Positions 11,906 to 49,138 of a stretch of DNA of 49,138 bases are shown here, piece by piece. Source of the DNA: Microcaldota archaeon (GTDB lineage Archaea > Micrarchaeota > Micrarchaeia > Micrarchaeales > CABMGC01). A model generated the notes under the pieces. The model did no database searches. It was not told the origin of the DNA and saw only the letters and a list, made by a program, of their open reading frames with translations. Every line of letters starts with the position of its first letter. Within the stretch, counting starts at the first letter, position 1. The translations under genes and the position numbers were made by a program. The stretch is taken from contig JAGWHJ010000008.1 of NCBI GenBank assembly GCA_028866835.1, forward strand, positions 1-49,138, given 5' to 3'.

Positions 11906-13129
11906 ATGGAAAAGACTTTTCAGCAGTCCATCGACGACCTGAAGAGATTCTACAATTTTTCAGACGTGGAATTGAAGATCCTGGAGCAGGTGGACAGGGC
12001 AGCTGAGGAGCTCTCGCTGTCAGAATTCGAGCATCACATAAACCATGAGGTAAATCCAGAGATACCCAAGATCGCGAAGAAGTACAATCTGCTTGGGATA
12101 CCGATAGGCAAGGAGTACGGAGGGTATGGCGCGAACATGCTCATCGCCGTCCTTTGCAATGAAAGGTTCGGGCAGCTGAGCCTCGGTTTTCCCACATTCT
12201 ATGACGTTGACGTCTTCATAGGCGCGCTCAGCCTGCAGCGATGGGGAACTGAAGCGCAGAAGGAGGGCTACCTGAAACCTGTGGTGCGCGGGGAGAAGGT
12301 GCTTGCCTTCGCATTGACGGAGCCGGACGTGGGCAGCGACCCGCCGGCGATGGCCACTAGCTACGAGAAGCGCGGAGACAAGTTCGTGCTGAACGGCACC
12401 AAGTACCTGATAACCAACGGATCCATAGCGGACAACATAATCGTCTTTGCCAAGTCGAAGGAGAACAAGAGGGACATAACAGCGTTCATCGTGGATACCA
12501 AAAGGAAGGGGTTCAGCGTTGAGATGCACCTGGGCGCAAAGATAGGGCTTTTCACCTCCGACACGGCGATGCTCGGCTTCGCCGACCTTGAAGTCCCTTC
12601 CGCAGATGTGCTTGGAGAGGAGGGCAAGGGCCTTCACGTAGCATACTCCGCCTTGCTGAACGGCAGGCTTGGGATAGCGTCAGGATGCATAGGTGTCATA
12701 GAGGGCAGCCTGAACGCCGCAACGGCAAGATCTGAGGAGCGCGTGCAGCACGGGAAGCTTATTGGGAAGCACCAGCTTATACAGCGCCATATAGCGGAGA
12801 TAAGGGAGAACCTCGAGATGGCGAAGTGGCCGACGTACTTCGCCGCGATGAGGAAGTCCGTGTACGACAAAAATCCCGCTGACCGCGCCTTCATGGACGA
12901 GATGGACCTGCGCACCGCGCTTGCGAAGAAGATAGCCTCGAGGCTCGCGTTCGAATCGGCGGACCGCGCAGTGCAGGTGTTCGGAGGGTTCGGATACTCG
13001 CTTCTTGCGCCGGTCGGCGCGTTGTTCTGCGACAGCAGGGTCACGAGGATATACGAGGGCACGGACGAGATAATGGAGCTCAAGATAGCGTCGAAGCTGC
13101 TGGGCAAGGATTTCGAGGCGTTCACATGA
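11906..13129 (+). CDS. Acyl-CoA dehydrogenase (copy 1)
   Basis: LAFALTEPDVGSDPPAM, VQVFGGFGYS, RVTRIYEGTDEIMELKIASKLLG. TATA-like aatataaaaag lies about 28 nt upstream. Confidence 0.95.
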   Translation: MEKTFQQSIDDLKRFYNFSDVELKILEQVDRAAEELSLSEFEHHINHEVNPEIPKIAKKYNLLGIPIGKEYGGYGANMLIAVLCNERFGQLSLGFPTFYDVDVFIGALSLQRWGTEAQKEGYLKPVVRGEKVLAFALTEPDVGSDPPAMATSYEKRGDKFVLNGTKYLITNGSIADNIIVFAKSKENKRDITAFIVDTKRKGFSVEMHLGAKIGLFTSDTAMLGFADLEVPSADVLGEEGKGLHVAYSALLNGRLGIASGCIGVIEGSLNAATARSEERVQHGKLIGKHQLIQRHIAEIRENLEMAKWPTYFAAMRKSVYDKNPADRAFMDEMDLRTALAKKIASRLAFESADRAVQVFGGFGYSLLAPVGALFCDSRVTRIYEGTDEIMELKIASKLLGKDFEAFT

Positions 13130-13572
13130 GGATAAGCCTTTCCGGCAATGCCGCCATGAATGCGCCTGTTGACAAGACGTTTAAGTTTGCGACAACGATC
13201 AGCCAGGTTGGTGTGTGCATCCCCAATGTCCAGGATTTCAAGCAGCTAGACGGGAAAAACTTCACGATGAACGTGGTAACCGGAGTTGCCTTCATAAAAG
13301 GCACCTTCGCGGTGAAGGGTGCGCTGACAGAGCAGGGCGAAAACCATGTTGCATACAGCGTGGAGTGGAAGGGAGTTGGAAGCACGATAAAGGTAAACCT
13401 GTCGTTCAACATGAGCCCCAAGATCAACGGCTATACCGATGTAGCGTGGACCGCAGACGCTGAGATGAGCGGCCTTATATCAGGCGTAAGCGAATCTGTA
13501 TTGAGGAAGGTGACGGAGGAGAAGATAGAGGAGATCGTGGCTAACGTCAAGGCCAGGCTCGAGAAAAGCTGA
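13126..13572 (+). CDS. CoxG-like/SRPBCC-fold protein
   Basis: SLSGNAAMNAPVDKTFKFATTISQVGVCIPNVQDFKQLDGKNF... resembles the CoxG family. Overlaps the upstream stop by ATGA. Confidence 0.75.
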   Translation: MRISLSGNAAMNAPVDKTFKFATTISQVGVCIPNVQDFKQLDGKNFTMNVVTGVAFIKGTFAVKGALTEQGENHVAYSVEWKGVGSTIKVNLSFNMSPKINGYTDVAWTADAEMSGLISGVSESVLRKVTEEKIEEIVANVKARLEKS

Positions 13573-13578
13573 TGCGCA

Positions 13579-14799
13579 ATGGAGAAACTATTCCAGCAAT
13601 CGATCGAGGACCTTAATTCCGTATGCAAGTTCACCGAAGAGGAACTCATGATACTAGACAATGCGGACAAGGCAACCGAGGAGATGGCGGCTCCGGAGTT
13701 CGAGCATTACCTCAAGCATGAGGTAAACCTTGAGGCTCCGAAGATTGCCCAGAAGCACGGCATACTCGGGATACCGATAAAGAAGGAGTACGGGGGCCTT
13801 GGTTCCAGCCACCTGATCGCGGTGCTTGCCAAGGAGCGGCTTGGGCAGCTCGGCCTGGGCTTCTCGAGCTTCTATAACGTGCAGGTCTTCCTTGGGGCAC
13901 TGAGCATACAGCGCTGGGGGAACGAGGCCCAGAAGCAGAGATACCTGAAGGCCGCGGTCAACAACGAGCTTGTGCTCGCCTTCGCGCTGACGGAACCGGA
14001 GGCGGGGAGCGATCCGGCATCGCTGAAGACCAGCTATGAGAGGCGTGACGGAAAGTTCGTGCTCAATGGCACGAAGTACCTGATAACCAACGGATCGATC
14101 GCGGATTACATAATAGTCTTTGCGAGGTCGAAGGAAAAGCCGACCGAGATAAGCGCCCTGATAGTCGATGCGAAGAGCTACGGCGTCAGCAGGATGCCGC
14201 TTACGGCCAAGATAGGACTCTTCACCTCCGACACGGCTATGATAGAGCTAAAGGACGTCGAAGTGCCTGAGGAGAACCTCCTCGGCGAGCTTGGGAAGGG
14301 GATGCACGTTGCTTATGCTGGGCTGCTCAATGGAAGGATAGGAGTTGCATCAGGATGCATAGGCATAATAGAGGGGTCGCTGAATGCGGTCATCGCAAGG
14401 TCGAAGGAGCGCGTGCAGCACGGGAAGCTTATTGGGAAGCACCAGCTGATACAGAGGCACATAGCCGAGATACGGCAGAACCTTGAGATGGCGAAGTGGC
14501 CGACGTACTTCGCCGCGATGCAAAGGGCCGACTATGAGAAGGACCCGAACAACCGCGCGCTCATGGATGAAGCGGAGCTCAGGACCGCGCTCGCGAAGAA
14601 GATAGCCTCGAGGCTCGCGTTCGAATCGGCGGACCGCGCAGTGCAGGTGTTCGGAGGGTTCGGATACTCGCTTCTCGCGCCGGTTGGCGAACTGTTCTGC
14701 GACAGCAGGGTCACGAGGATATACGAGGGCGCGGATGAGATACTTGAGCTCAAGATAGCCTCAGAGGTACTTGGAAAGGGCTTTGAGGCATACAGCTGA
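13579..14799 (+). CDS. Acyl-CoA dehydrogenase (copy 2)
   Basis: Close paralog of 11906-13129; LAFALTEPEAGSDPASL, VQVFGGFGYS, RIYEGADEILELK. Confidence 0.95.
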   Translation: MEKLFQQSIEDLNSVCKFTEEELMILDNADKATEEMAAPEFEHYLKHEVNLEAPKIAQKHGILGIPIKKEYGGLGSSHLIAVLAKERLGQLGLGFSSFYNVQVFLGALSIQRWGNEAQKQRYLKAAVNNELVLAFALTEPEAGSDPASLKTSYERRDGKFVLNGTKYLITNGSIADYIIVFARSKEKPTEISALIVDAKSYGVSRMPLTAKIGLFTSDTAMIELKDVEVPEENLLGELGKGMHVAYAGLLNGRIGVASGCIGIIEGSLNAVIARSKERVQHGKLIGKHQLIQRHIAEIRQNLEMAKWPTYFAAMQRADYEKDPNNRALMDEAELRTALAKKIASRLAFESADRAVQVFGGFGYSLLAPVGELFCDSRVTRIYEGADEILELKIASEVLGKGFEAYS

Positions 14800-16181: not shown

Positions 16182-17408
16182 TCACGTTCTACGCACGATT
16201 ATAGATGCAGCGCCTCCGCCGCCGTGGCACAGGGTGGCAAGCCCGATCTCCTTTCCGCGGTCCTTCAGCGCATAGACAAGCGTGGAGAGTATGCATGCCC
16301 CAGATGCCCCAAGGGGATGCCCTATTGCAGTCGCTCCGCCGTTGACGTTCAATCTGCTCTCGTCTATGCCGAGCTCCTTCACTACCGCAAGCGCCTGGAC
16401 GCAGAATGCCTCATTGATCTCGATAAGATCGACGTCGCTTAGCTTGAGATTTGCCTTGGCAAGTGACTTATTCACAGCTGCAACAGGCGCAATTCCGTAC
16501 ATCTCCGGATCGCCTCCCGACGCCGCGAATGACTCTATCTTCGCGAGCGGCTCCAGGCCGTAATCCTTCAGTTTCTTCTCCGATACAAGTATAAGGAACG
16601 ATGCCCCGTCGCTCAGCTGCGATGCGTTCCCCGCTGTTATCATGCCGTCGCTCTTGAAGGCAGGCTTCAGCGCCGAAAGCTTCTCGATGCTCGTGTCCCT
16701 CCTTATCCCTTCATCAGCCTGGAGGATGTAGCCATCGGGCAGCTCCATCGGTATTATCTCGCGCTTGAACTTTCCGCTGTCGGTGGCCTGCGCGGCCCGC
16801 TGGTGGCTCTGCAATGCGAACCGGTCCTCGTCCTCGCGCGTTATGCCGTATTTCCCTCCGAGGGTCTCTGCTATGGTGCCCATGTGAAGATTGCTGTAGC
16901 AGTCCATAAGGCCCTCGCTGAGCATCTCGTCGACAAGCTCGAAGTCCGAAGCCTCGGACTTGCCCTGGTTCAGCTTCTCAAGGAATGCGTCGAGTTTTAT
17001 GTTCCCGAACTTCTGGATCTGCCTTGCCCCGCTTATCGAGAAGGGCGCGTTCGACATGCTCTCTATGCCTCCGGCGATGATGACATCGGAGTTCCCGCAC
17101 GATATCGCCTCTGCTGCAAGCCCTACGGCTTTCAGGCTCGAGGCGCAGACCTTGTTGACCGCATATGCAGGTATCTTGTCGGGCAGGCCTGCGTACCTGA
17201 CGACCTGCTTCGCCACGTTCTGCCCCAGTCCCGCCGATATGACGTTTCCCACTATGACCTCGTCTATCTCGTCGGCATTGACATGCGTCCTGTCCAGCTC
17301 TGCCTTCACGACCTCCGCTCCGAGATGCGTGGCGTCAATACCGGAAAGCGATCCGAGAAACTTTCCTACCGGGCTCCTTGCCGCATCAACGATGTAAACT
17401 TCCGCCAT
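16182..17408 (-). CDS. Acetyl-CoA acetyltransferase / thiolase
   Basis: VNKVCASSLKAVGLA, INEAFCVQALAV, NVNGGATAIGHPLGASGACIL, LCHGGGGAASIIV. ATG at 17408 (MAEVYIVDAARSPVG) preferred. Confidence 0.95.
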   Translation of the reverse strand: MAEVYIVDAARSPVGKFLGSLSGIDATHLGAEVVKAELDRTHVNADEIDEVIVGNVISAGLGQNVAKQVVRYAGLPDKIPAYAVNKVCASSLKAVGLAAEAISCGNSDVIIAGGIESMSNAPFSISGARQIQKFGNIKLDAFLEKLNQGKSEASDFELVDEMLSEGLMDCYSNLHMGTIAETLGGKYGITREDEDRFALQSHQRAAQATDSGKFKREIIPMELPDGYILQADEGIRRDTSIEKLSALKPAFKSDGMITAGNASQLSDGASFLILVSEKKLKDYGLEPLAKIESFAASGGDPEMYGIAPVAAVNKSLAKANLKLSDVDLIEINEAFCVQALAVVKELGIDESRLNVNGGATAIGHPLGASGACILSTLVYALKDRGKEIGLATLCHGGGGAASIIVRRT

Positions 17409-17417
17409 GGTAAACAC

Positions 17418-46102: not shown

Positions 46103-46726
46103 CTAGGAATGCCATTTTGATTCCACAAACTTAGATATCTCGGTCAGGGTATCCTTGTAATTCGTGTTGTCAAAGACCTTTATGCCCTTTTTCTTGCATG
46201 CCTCTATGGAATATTCGGCCATGAACCTGTACGCATCGAGATGAGGCAGCAGCCTGTCTCCTGGCTGGCCAGGATGTGTATAATCCTTCCTTTCCAGTAC
46301 CATCTGCTCGTACCTTTTTGGATCCGATACCTGTATGTAGAAAGGAAGTACACCGGGATTGCTAAGGGCCGGCAAGAAGTCGGGTATGAAATAGAGTGTC
46401 TCGACGATCATCCTCTCACCGTTCTTTAGCGCACGTTCTACTGTTGCATTGATTCCTCTTGACATTATCTCGCCCTGCTCTAGATACCCCTTGACTATGT
46501 TGTATTTGTTTCTTTAACCGAATTTTTTCCAAGAATCGTATACGCTTGTATTGAGGACAGTGTACCTGGAATCCTCGGCGATTATGGGTCTTATGAACTC
46601 CCTGAGATAATCTCCGGAAAGCACGATGCCTATGCCAAGGCTCTTGGCAAGGGATGCGCATATGCTAGATTTCCCAACGCACGGAATTCCGCCTACGATG
46701 ATGACTGTGGTCTTGGAAGTCGCCAT
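46103..46726 (-). pseudogene. P-loop small-molecule kinase (2-phosphoglycerate-kinase/mevalonate-3-phosphate-5-kinase-like candidate), interrupted by in-frame TAA
   Basis: 46514-46726 encodes MATSKTTVIIVGGIPCVGKSSICASLAKSLG...NTSVYDSWKKFG*; the same frame continues RNKYNIVKGYLEQGEIMSRGINATVERALKNGERMIVETLYFIPDF...SKWHS to 46103. TAA at 46514-46516. Confidence 0.75.
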
Positions 46727-46730
46727 ATCT

Positions 46731-47894
46731 TCACCTCAATGATTCAAGGAATGCTGAAGCCGTGTGCGCAGCCTTGGGATCAGGCGAATAATTCACGCTC
46801 TGCGGTATTTTTCCATATAATGGCTTTGCAGACTGCGTTGCTATGAACCTTTTGAGTTCACCCTCGTCAGTTGACATCACAACTATCGACGGGCCGGTAT
46901 CCGCGGTCATGAAGATGTTCCCGCCCGACTGCTGGAAGCTCTTGACCGCGTTTATGAGCTTTATGCTTCTTTCAGTGTCTATTATAACTCCTCCCGATGT
47001 TAAAAGGGAGCGCAGAAAGAACATGTCCTCTTGCGCATTTCTCATGAGATCCTCTATCTTCGGGCCGGACTTTATCAGCTTGAGTATCCTGTCGTACTTG
47101 TTTATGACCCAGGTAGGATAGAATGGGGAGCTTGAGGCTATGCCGTGCGCATCCATGGTCTGGATGTTATGGAAGTCAGGGAAGACTGCAAAATGGAAAT
47201 TGCTCGTATCGACATCGAGCCTGCAGGCGTATGATTGGCTCTCCTCTATCTCCGGAAATGCGATCCATATGGACATCCCGCCGGCTGCAGATCTTGTTCC
47301 TGAACCAGATGCGAACCTCGCGAACCGCGACACAAAAATATCGTCATGCGCGGCATCTTCGCCGAAAACGTTTGCTATTAGGGCCCGCGCAGTTGCAGCC
47401 GCTACCGCAGCGGATTCGCCCAGCCCTTTTGCTTTGTCGTATCTCTTGACCCTTTCTATGGTAAACTCGAAAGAACCGGTTATTCCAGTTATGCTCCGGA
47501 AGTTGTCAAGGGCCTTTCTTGCCCTCTTGTCGTATCTTTCGTTGGATTCCCCATCCAGGAAGACCTTGTCCCTACCGGGCTCCCGCACGTACCTGCAGAA
47601 ACAACGCACGACACTGAAATCTGTAACCATCGATATGGATGGAGAAAAAGCAAGATTGGCATCCTTTTTCCAATATCCCAGGAATTTTTCAAATGCTGTT
47701 ATAGGATAGCCTTCGCCGTATGTGACCTTACCGTCCTCAGGTTGCGCCCTGTAACTCCCCAGGGGCTTGTAAAGGCCCCTTGATTCAAGGTGCTTTAGAA
47801 TCTCTGTTCCTTTTTCATGCAGCTCCCTTAGCTCGGCTGCGCTGAATTGAGGTTTTGTAGCAGGCCTATCAGCATGCCTAACCGGCATATTCAC
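46731..47894 (-). CDS. Diphosphomevalonate decarboxylase-family GHMP enzyme
   Basis: ITAFEKFLGYWKKDANLAFSPSISM, KGLGESAAVAAATARAL, FARFASGSGTRSAAGGMSIW, and decarboxylase-type D-x-G-P (FMTADTGPSIVV). Confidence 0.85.
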   Translation of the reverse strand: MNMPVRHADRPATKPQFSAAELRELHEKGTEILKHLESRGLYKPLGSYRAQPEDGKVTYGEGYPITAFEKFLGYWKKDANLAFSPSISMVTDFSVVRCFCRYVREPGRDKVFLDGESNERYDKRARKALDNFRSITGITGSFEFTIERVKRYDKAKGLGESAAVAAATARALIANVFGEDAAHDDIFVSRFARFASGSGTRSAAGGMSIWIAFPEIEESQSYACRLDVDTSNFHFAVFPDFHNIQTMDAHGIASSSPFYPTWVINKYDRILKLIKSGPKIEDLMRNAQEDMFFLRSLLTSGGVIIDTERSIKLINAVKSFQQSGGNIFMTADTGPSIVVMSTDEGELKRFIATQSAKPLYGKIPQSVNYSPDPKAAHTASAFLESLR

Positions 47895-47988
47895 CGACTA
47901 TATAGTCATTTATTAAGGATTATAAGACTTATTATTGGGCTTGGCCCCTGCCGTTAGTACGTATTAAAGCGCCGTAAAGTTATGTTAA

Positions 47989-49138
47989 ATGGGATCTATT
48001 TTATGGTTTGCGTTTCAAATGGAATCCATGCGGAAGATGATGTATGGGATAATTGCTGTCATAGTGATGGTAGCGATTGCTGTGATGGCCTTTTATATAC
48101 TAAATAACTCCCCCTCCCCGCCGATTCACTATTCCAGTAAGAATGCGACAAATGTAACTAATGGTATAAACAACTTTGCTTTTAAGGCATATTCAGAGCT
48201 AAACGCGGGATCTGACAATGGATCTACTAACATTTTCTTTTCGCCATTTTCCGTATACACCGCTATGTCAATGGTGGCTGAGGGAGCTGGCGGTAATACG
48301 GCTTCACAGATGCACGATGTCCTGGGCCTTTCGCCAAACTCATCGGATAATCACGCAGGCTTTGGGCTGTATTTAGCAGTATCAATGCTCACGGAACCGG
48401 GTATAATCTCTCAACTGCTGATTCGGTGTGGATCGAAAAGAATTTTCCAATCAATCAGGGGTTTACAAAAAATCTCTCTACTTACTACTTTGCATCTTCA
48501 TCTTCGGCTGATTTTGTTAATGACGCTTCTGGAGAGACAACAGATATTAACAATTGGGTTTCAAACAAAACAGATGGCAAGATTACTGATTTAATTCCGC
48601 CGGGTGGCTTAGATTCCAGCACTGTTTTAGTTCTCGTTAATGCAATATACTTTAAGGGAAAGTGGTTACAAGAATTTAATAGGAATAATACACGTTCGGA
48701 ACCATTTTACATTTCACCGGATCAAAAAACAAACGTTTCTATGATGTATTCGGAATTAAGTAACGCTTCTTATTACGGTAACGGCAATTATCAGGCTCTG
48801 GAAATGGACTATGCAGGAGGAAATCTATCAATGCTTATAGTATTGCCTAATCAGACTAGCCTTTCACAGATAGAGACAGGCCTTTCTTCCACTGAAATAA
48901 ATAGTATCCGTTCAAGACTTGTAAAACAGCAAGTAGACGTTTGGCTCCCTAGATTTAATATTACCAAGTTTGAGGATATGAGAGACCTGCTCGAATCACT
49001 TGGTATTCAAGATGCGTTTAATCCGAGCGCAGCTAATTTTTCTGGCATAGGTTCGGGGGGGCTTTCCATCTCTGATGTCTACCATAAAGCTTATATTCAA
49101 GTAAATGAGTCAGGCACTACGGCGGCAGCCGCAACAGG
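47989..49138 (+). pseudogene. Membrane-anchored serpin, frameshifted near 48364-48368 and truncated by window end
   Basis: Frame 1: TM MYGIIAVIVMVAIAVMAFYIL and NIFFSPFSVYTAMSMVAEGAGGNTASQMHDVLG. Shifted frame: INAHGTGYNLSTADSVWIEKNF...VLVNAIYFKGKW...FNPSAANFSGI...SDVYHKAYIQVNESGTTAAAAT, open to the edge. Confidence 0.88.

Follow-up and report, generated by a model that had tools for sequence, protein, structure and literature searches.

In the genome of a micrarchaeon, a tiny archaeon of the symbiont type, two adjacent genes very probably code for successive enzymes of the Thermoplasma-type mevalonate pathway, the acid-adapted route to the precursors of membrane lipids. These are the bisphosphomevalonate decarboxylase (MBD) and the mevalonate-3-phosphate 5-kinase (M3P5K). 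The features of the locus are collected in Table 1, with coordinates that refer to the whole stretch of DNA that was analysed (49,138 nucleotides; the window). The original prediction, made from the sequence alone, had placed the pair in the same branch of the pathway, and the profile scores, the trees and the presence of mevalonate 3-kinase (M3K) and isopentenyl phosphate kinase (IPK) elsewhere in the genome argue for this placement. That the genome is micrarchaeal, as had also been suggested, agrees with the related contigs, which belong to MAGs named Candidatus Micrarchaeota.

Table 1. Features of the putative MBD/M3P5K locus (window positions)
Feature	Position	Strand	Basis
MBD gene	46731..47894	-	NF040847 match, 7T71 match, tree position, motif table
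M3P5K gene, P-loop kinase, one in-frame TAA inside	46103..46726	-	NF008996 match, AlphaFold model
In-frame TAA, kinase codon 71	46514..46516	-	codon table, 28 aligned kinases
GAGGTGA, ribosome-binding-like motif for kinase, overlaps MBD stop codon	46731..46737	-	sequence
GGTGA, ribosome-binding-like motif for MBD	47891..47895	-	sequence

The MBD gene lies upstream of the kinase gene, both on the minus strand. As predicted, the first open reading frame, which ends at 46731, carries the GHMP-family motifs TADTGPS and SGSGTRS, and the second, which begins with an ATG at 46726 after a gap of 4 bases, carries the P-loop motif GGIPCVGKSS. The frame of the kinase does span the 207 codons that had been proposed for a joined protein, but the prediction was silent on the TAA, which is number 71 of these codons. 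Similarly, the predicted end of the decarboxylase gene stands, whereas its start is more likely the ATG at 47888 than the listed GTG at 47894, because the GTG is overlapped by a GGTGA motif; the same type of motif precedes the start of the kinase. As the ribosome-binding-like GAGGTGA of the kinase shares bases with the MBD stop codon, the translation of the kinase is likely to be coupled to that of the decarboxylase. Scores to equivalog models of 421 bits (decarboxylase) and 206 bits (kinase) show that the matches are not due to chance.

Among the NCBIfam models the decarboxylase scores highest against NF040847 (bisphosphomevalonate decarboxylase), its 421 bits being below the cut-off of 560 bits, as compared to 62.8 bits for TIGR01240 (diphosphomevalonate decarboxylase, MDD) and 57.1 bits for NF040704 (phosphomevalonate decarboxylase, PMD). 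The closest solved structure is 7T71, the MBD of Picrophilus torridus (PtoMBD; E=7e-77, runner-up 4e-12). In a tree of 34 sequences all MDD and PMD proteins split off with a support of 100/99, and the window protein clusters with the proteins of the micrarchaeal genomes G039, G201 and G054 (99/98), among the MBDs of the Micrarchaeota and the Thermoplasmata; its identity to the main MBDs of the Thermoplasmata is 38-44%. The profile scores, the structure match and the tree thus bear out the predicted identity of the decarboxylase. The residues Lys70, Arg201 and Asp332 (numbered from GTG 47894) are retained in the alignments, and Asp332 aligns with Asp309 of PtoMBD, the replacement of which abolished activity (PMC9254496). 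At the nucleotide site, the motif ASS(A/S)SG of the MDD and PMD proteins is changed to GLGESAAVA, like in the Picrophilus-type and Thermoplasmata MBDs. Judged on this motif alone, the ATP site appears to have been lost from the protein, as would be expected if the enzyme works without ATP (PMC5177888). As the residues for elimination and decarboxylation are kept while the ATP-site motif is lacking, the phosphorylations would have to come from separate kinases.

Read through the stop, the kinase matches NF008996 (mevalonate-3-phosphate 5-kinase) over positions 2-190 of the 193 in the profile, with 205.7 bits (cut-off 250 bits, so under the threshold). Scored separately, its two halves reach 73.6 and 97.8 bits to NF008996, versus 43.9 and 53.4 bits to 2PGK, and in the kinase tree the protein is found together with the micrarchaeal and Thermoplasmata M3P5Ks, apart from the 2-phosphoglycerate-kinase-like proteins. 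The AlphaFold model of the read-through kinase (pLDDT 93) has an adenylate-kinase-like P-loop fold, resembling the adenylate and UMP kinases; the fold search returned nothing more specific, and a phmmer search of the PDB gave no match. The NF008996 score, the codon alignment and the tree point to a kinase of the Ta0762 type, as had been anticipated, and not to an unrelated one.

The remainder of the pathway was sought in the genome assembly (1.09 Mb in 40 contigs, with a completeness of 88%). Only two GHMP proteins of this assembly matched PF00288, MBD itself and an M3K on contig C9. The M3K scores 128 bits to NF040848 (under the cut-off of 440 bits) and its best PDB match is Ta1305 (4RKP); the decarboxylation Asp is replaced by a Gly (TAGGG where MBD has TADTG). 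The gene is located 22 bases upstream of the gene for IPK (NF040647, 213.9 bits, above the cut-off of 120), on another contig than M3P5K and MBD. The NCBIfam strict cut-offs are missed by MBD, M3P5K and M3K alike, and the thresholds are apparently tuned to Thermoplasmatales sequences. HMG-CoA reductase (HMGR) is encoded on contig C3 and two prenyl synthases on contigs C29 and C36, and the window also holds an acetyl-CoA acyltransferase (thiolase) and a homologue of digeranylgeranylglycerophospholipid reductase. Two acyl-CoA dehydrogenase genes near the thiolase gene (11906-14799, plus strand; 16182-17417, minus strand) give a fatty-acid-oxidation-like cluster. Neither the Rfam scan nor the tRNA scan of the window produced a match.

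M3K and IPK, for which the original prediction had proposed a search, were thus recovered, and AcnX was not found in the 88% complete genome. Mevalonate kinase (MVK), PMK and MDD were not found either, an absence that is not absolute at this completeness, and a family search of the genome gave no second M3P5K. The assembly contains neither the set MVK, PMK and MDD nor MVK with AcnX, so that a complete classical or archaeal mevalonate pathway, which would have spoken against the prediction, is lacking from it. As MVK, PMK and MDD were not found, a route from mevalonate to IPP in this genome would have to be Thermoplasma-type, provided that M3P5K is made. In such a route mevalonate would be converted by M3K to mevalonate-3-phosphate, and this by M3P5K to mevalonate-3,5-bisphosphate, from which the ATP-independent MBD would release isopentenyl phosphate, CO2 and Pi; IPK would then form IPP from isopentenyl phosphate. 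The genes are identified by their sequence, and we infer this chemistry from the homologues that have been assayed in Thermoplasma and Picrophilus. If the TAA is genuine and is not read through, no active M3P5K would be formed and the route would halt at mevalonate-3-phosphate.

The kinase frame is not uninterrupted: it comprises codons 1-70 (46726-46517) and the TAA (46516-46514), after which it is open to 46103. M3P5K is present in 17 of the 301 genomes of the phylum, and the internal stop occurs in the window copy only (none of the 16 others). In the alignment of 28 kinases the column of codon 71 contains, in the nearest relatives, GAG (Glu; G039) and GAA (Glu; G232), with E, D, N, Q or P across the M3P5Ks and a stop in no relative. 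The identity between the window kinase and that of G039 is 44/68 before the stop (65%) and 79/132 after it (60%), to be compared with 44/68 (65%) and 75/132 (57%) for the intact pair G039-G232; these identities were used, and dN/dS was set aside as the synonymous sites are saturated. Because the values resemble those of the intact pair, the sequence after the stop is uneroded. A frameshift was rejected as the source of the interruption, since the frame is the same on both sides of the TAA, and so was a genome-wide recoding of TAA, with which 8 of the 24 window genes end. As the stop is private among the 17 M3P5Ks and the downstream part is uneroded, the TAA is either a single recent nonsense substitution or a sequencing or consensus error. 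The window further contains a serpin gene (47989-49138, plus strand) with an N-terminal hydrophobic stretch, which has a frameshift near 48370-48430 and runs off the end of the contig.

We consider the chance about even that the TAA is an error of sequencing or of the assembly consensus, or else a minority allele, and that the population carries an intact gene. A private stop within an otherwise conserved frame would fit such an origin, as would the second broken gene nearby, the serpin gene, 1.3-1.9 kb away and close to the contig end. However, a single substitution is concerned and not a homopolymer indel, and the conserved enzymes that were checked elsewhere in the genome are free of stops. 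Only tentatively could the stop be taken as genuine, in which case M3P5K would be a fresh pseudogene, the pathway would be broken after M3K and the isoprenoids would come from a host. The TAA does stand in the assembled consensus, the 88% complete assembly lacks both a second M3P5K and MVK, and in Ca. Micrarchaeum harzensis, where the variant-III pathway is incomplete (no HMGR, no G1PDH), reliance on the host has been proposed (PMC8975820). Against a genuine stop speak the equal conservation on its two sides and the unbroken frames of HMGR, M3K, MBD and IPK, and base errors are possible in an assembly in which the serpin gene is also frame-broken. That the TAA has even become fixed in the population seems unlikely; it would imply that a micrarchaeal symbiont, its Thermoplasma-type pathway complete in all other respects, has just lost M3P5K and obtains isoprenoids from its host. 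Mevalonate-3-phosphate would then lead nowhere or be exchanged as an intermediate, in a pathway caught in the middle of its decay.

It is improbable that the kinase functions as two polypeptides or by read-through of the TAA. A candidate restart ATG (46463-46465) is present 48 bases past the stop, and the AlphaFold model places the TAA in a loop that joins two helices, but the restarted fragment would begin within a long helix (74-102) and without the conserved N-I-x-K-G-Y-x-x-Q segment, and the TAA is an ordinary stop codon in the window. To our knowledge, recoding of TAA is not known from archaea. A genuine stop would be a sub-question within the main explanation and leaves the gene names untouched. 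These names would change if the pair consisted of an MDD or PMD, classical or haloarchaeal, and an unrelated nucleotide-type kinase, with which the proteins share superfamilies and the kinase a predicted adenylate/UMP kinase-like fold. We rejected this combination, which is hardly credible: both scores and trees assign the two genes to MBD and M3P5K, the ASS(A/S)SG motif is missing, and no MVK or PMK that could feed an MDD was found in the 88% complete genome.

MBD and M3P5K are found together in 3 of the 79 genomes of the family to which the window belongs. Many other genomes of this family give a distant match, and the three that were checked against NCBIfam are classical MDDs, above the TIGR01240 cut-off; the locus thus adds one member to the few Thermoplasma-type genomes of a family whose other checked decarboxylases are classical. 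This distribution supports the view that in DPANN archaea the final part of the mevalonate pathway has been exchanged more than once. Across the phylum 15 genomes have a strong M3K match, and all 15 also encode M3P5K, usually adjacent and often in an operon M3K-M3P5K-MBD. This is the usual gene order in a second family, whereas in G039 M3K is divergent from MBD-M3P5K and in G054 the order is M3P5K-M3K-MBD. The MBDs of G254 and G255 (loci L055 and L056), unlike those of the other Micrarchaeota, fall inside the Thermoplasmata MBDs (100/97), while G254 has an M3K and an M3P5K of micrarchaeal type, which points to a separate, second acquisition of MBD.

In four genomes (loci L052 in G232, L049 in G234, L050 in G246 and L051 in G233) M3K and M3P5K adjoin an ATP-dependent, MDD-type decarboxylase in the place of MBD (TIGR01240: 290 bits in G232, 299 in G233), and MBD was not found in any of the four. 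G233 and G246 also have a mevalonate kinase homologue, and G232 has IPK. The arrangement may represent a chimeric or transitional pathway, and such operons bear on the mutual replacement of MBD and MDD. The PMD of Roseiflexus decarboxylates mevalonate-3,5-bisphosphate with ADP (PMC5177888). In G148 (L054/L064) a diverged M3P5K-like kinase, extended at its N-terminus, is encoded beside an MBD-like protein in which a GLSASASG motif has been kept; this MBD-like protein may use ATP and stand between PMD and MBD. Among the Thermoplasmata, L115 (G377) and L116 (G345) represent an additional MBD paralogue that has diverged (295 and 244 bits); the one of L116 is without the SGSGTRS arginine. In G326 (L095/L108), also of the Thermoplasmata, M3P5K and MBD are adjacent with an overlap of a few bases, and MBD has the Asp-loop motif of the P. 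torridus enzyme; the linkage of the two genes is therefore not confined to the Micrarchaeota.

The enzymes of the Thermoplasma-type (variant III) pathway are known from Ta1305 (M3K), Ta0762 (M3P5K) and Ta0893 or the Picrophilus MBD (PMC5177888, PMC9254496). Variant-III genes and their horizontal origin from Thermoplasmatales have been described for Micrarchaeota, among them Ca. Micrarchaeum harzensis (PMC8975820), MBD was reported in 16.3% of the Micrarchaeota (PMC8407392), and the pathway has members in DPANN and Asgard archaea, with some MAGs combining Thermoplasma-type genes with a eukaryote-type PMK and DMD (PMC11052028). The route has thus already been published for Micrarchaeota, and the window locus is a further member. 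New are the premature stop, and the ATP-dependent decarboxylase that replaces MBD in the operons of relatives. Neither the stop nor the contrast in HMGR with M. harzensis is mentioned in PMC8975820, PMC8407392 and PMC11052028, as far as searched. The stop raises the question whether isoprenoid synthesis is lost stepwise in such symbionts, with reliance on the host.

With the Thermoplasma-type pathway the genome shares the same three enzyme families, the same catalytic residues of MBD, the presence of IPK and the absence of MVK; it differs in that M3K and the M3P5K-MBD pair lie on separate contigs, the kinase has a stop and the identity of MBD to the main Thermoplasmata enzymes is 38-44%. Ca. 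M. harzensis and other Micrarchaeota with variant III belong to the same phylum and have the same gene set, with a likely horizontal origin involving Thermoplasmatales, but HMGR, reported absent in Ca. M. harzensis, is present here, and the kinase frame is interrupted here. Finally, the window MBD has the GHMP fold and the Lys/Arg/Asp triad in common with classical MDD (TIGR01240), whereas the ASS(A/S)SG motif that the MDDs have kept has been lost from it.
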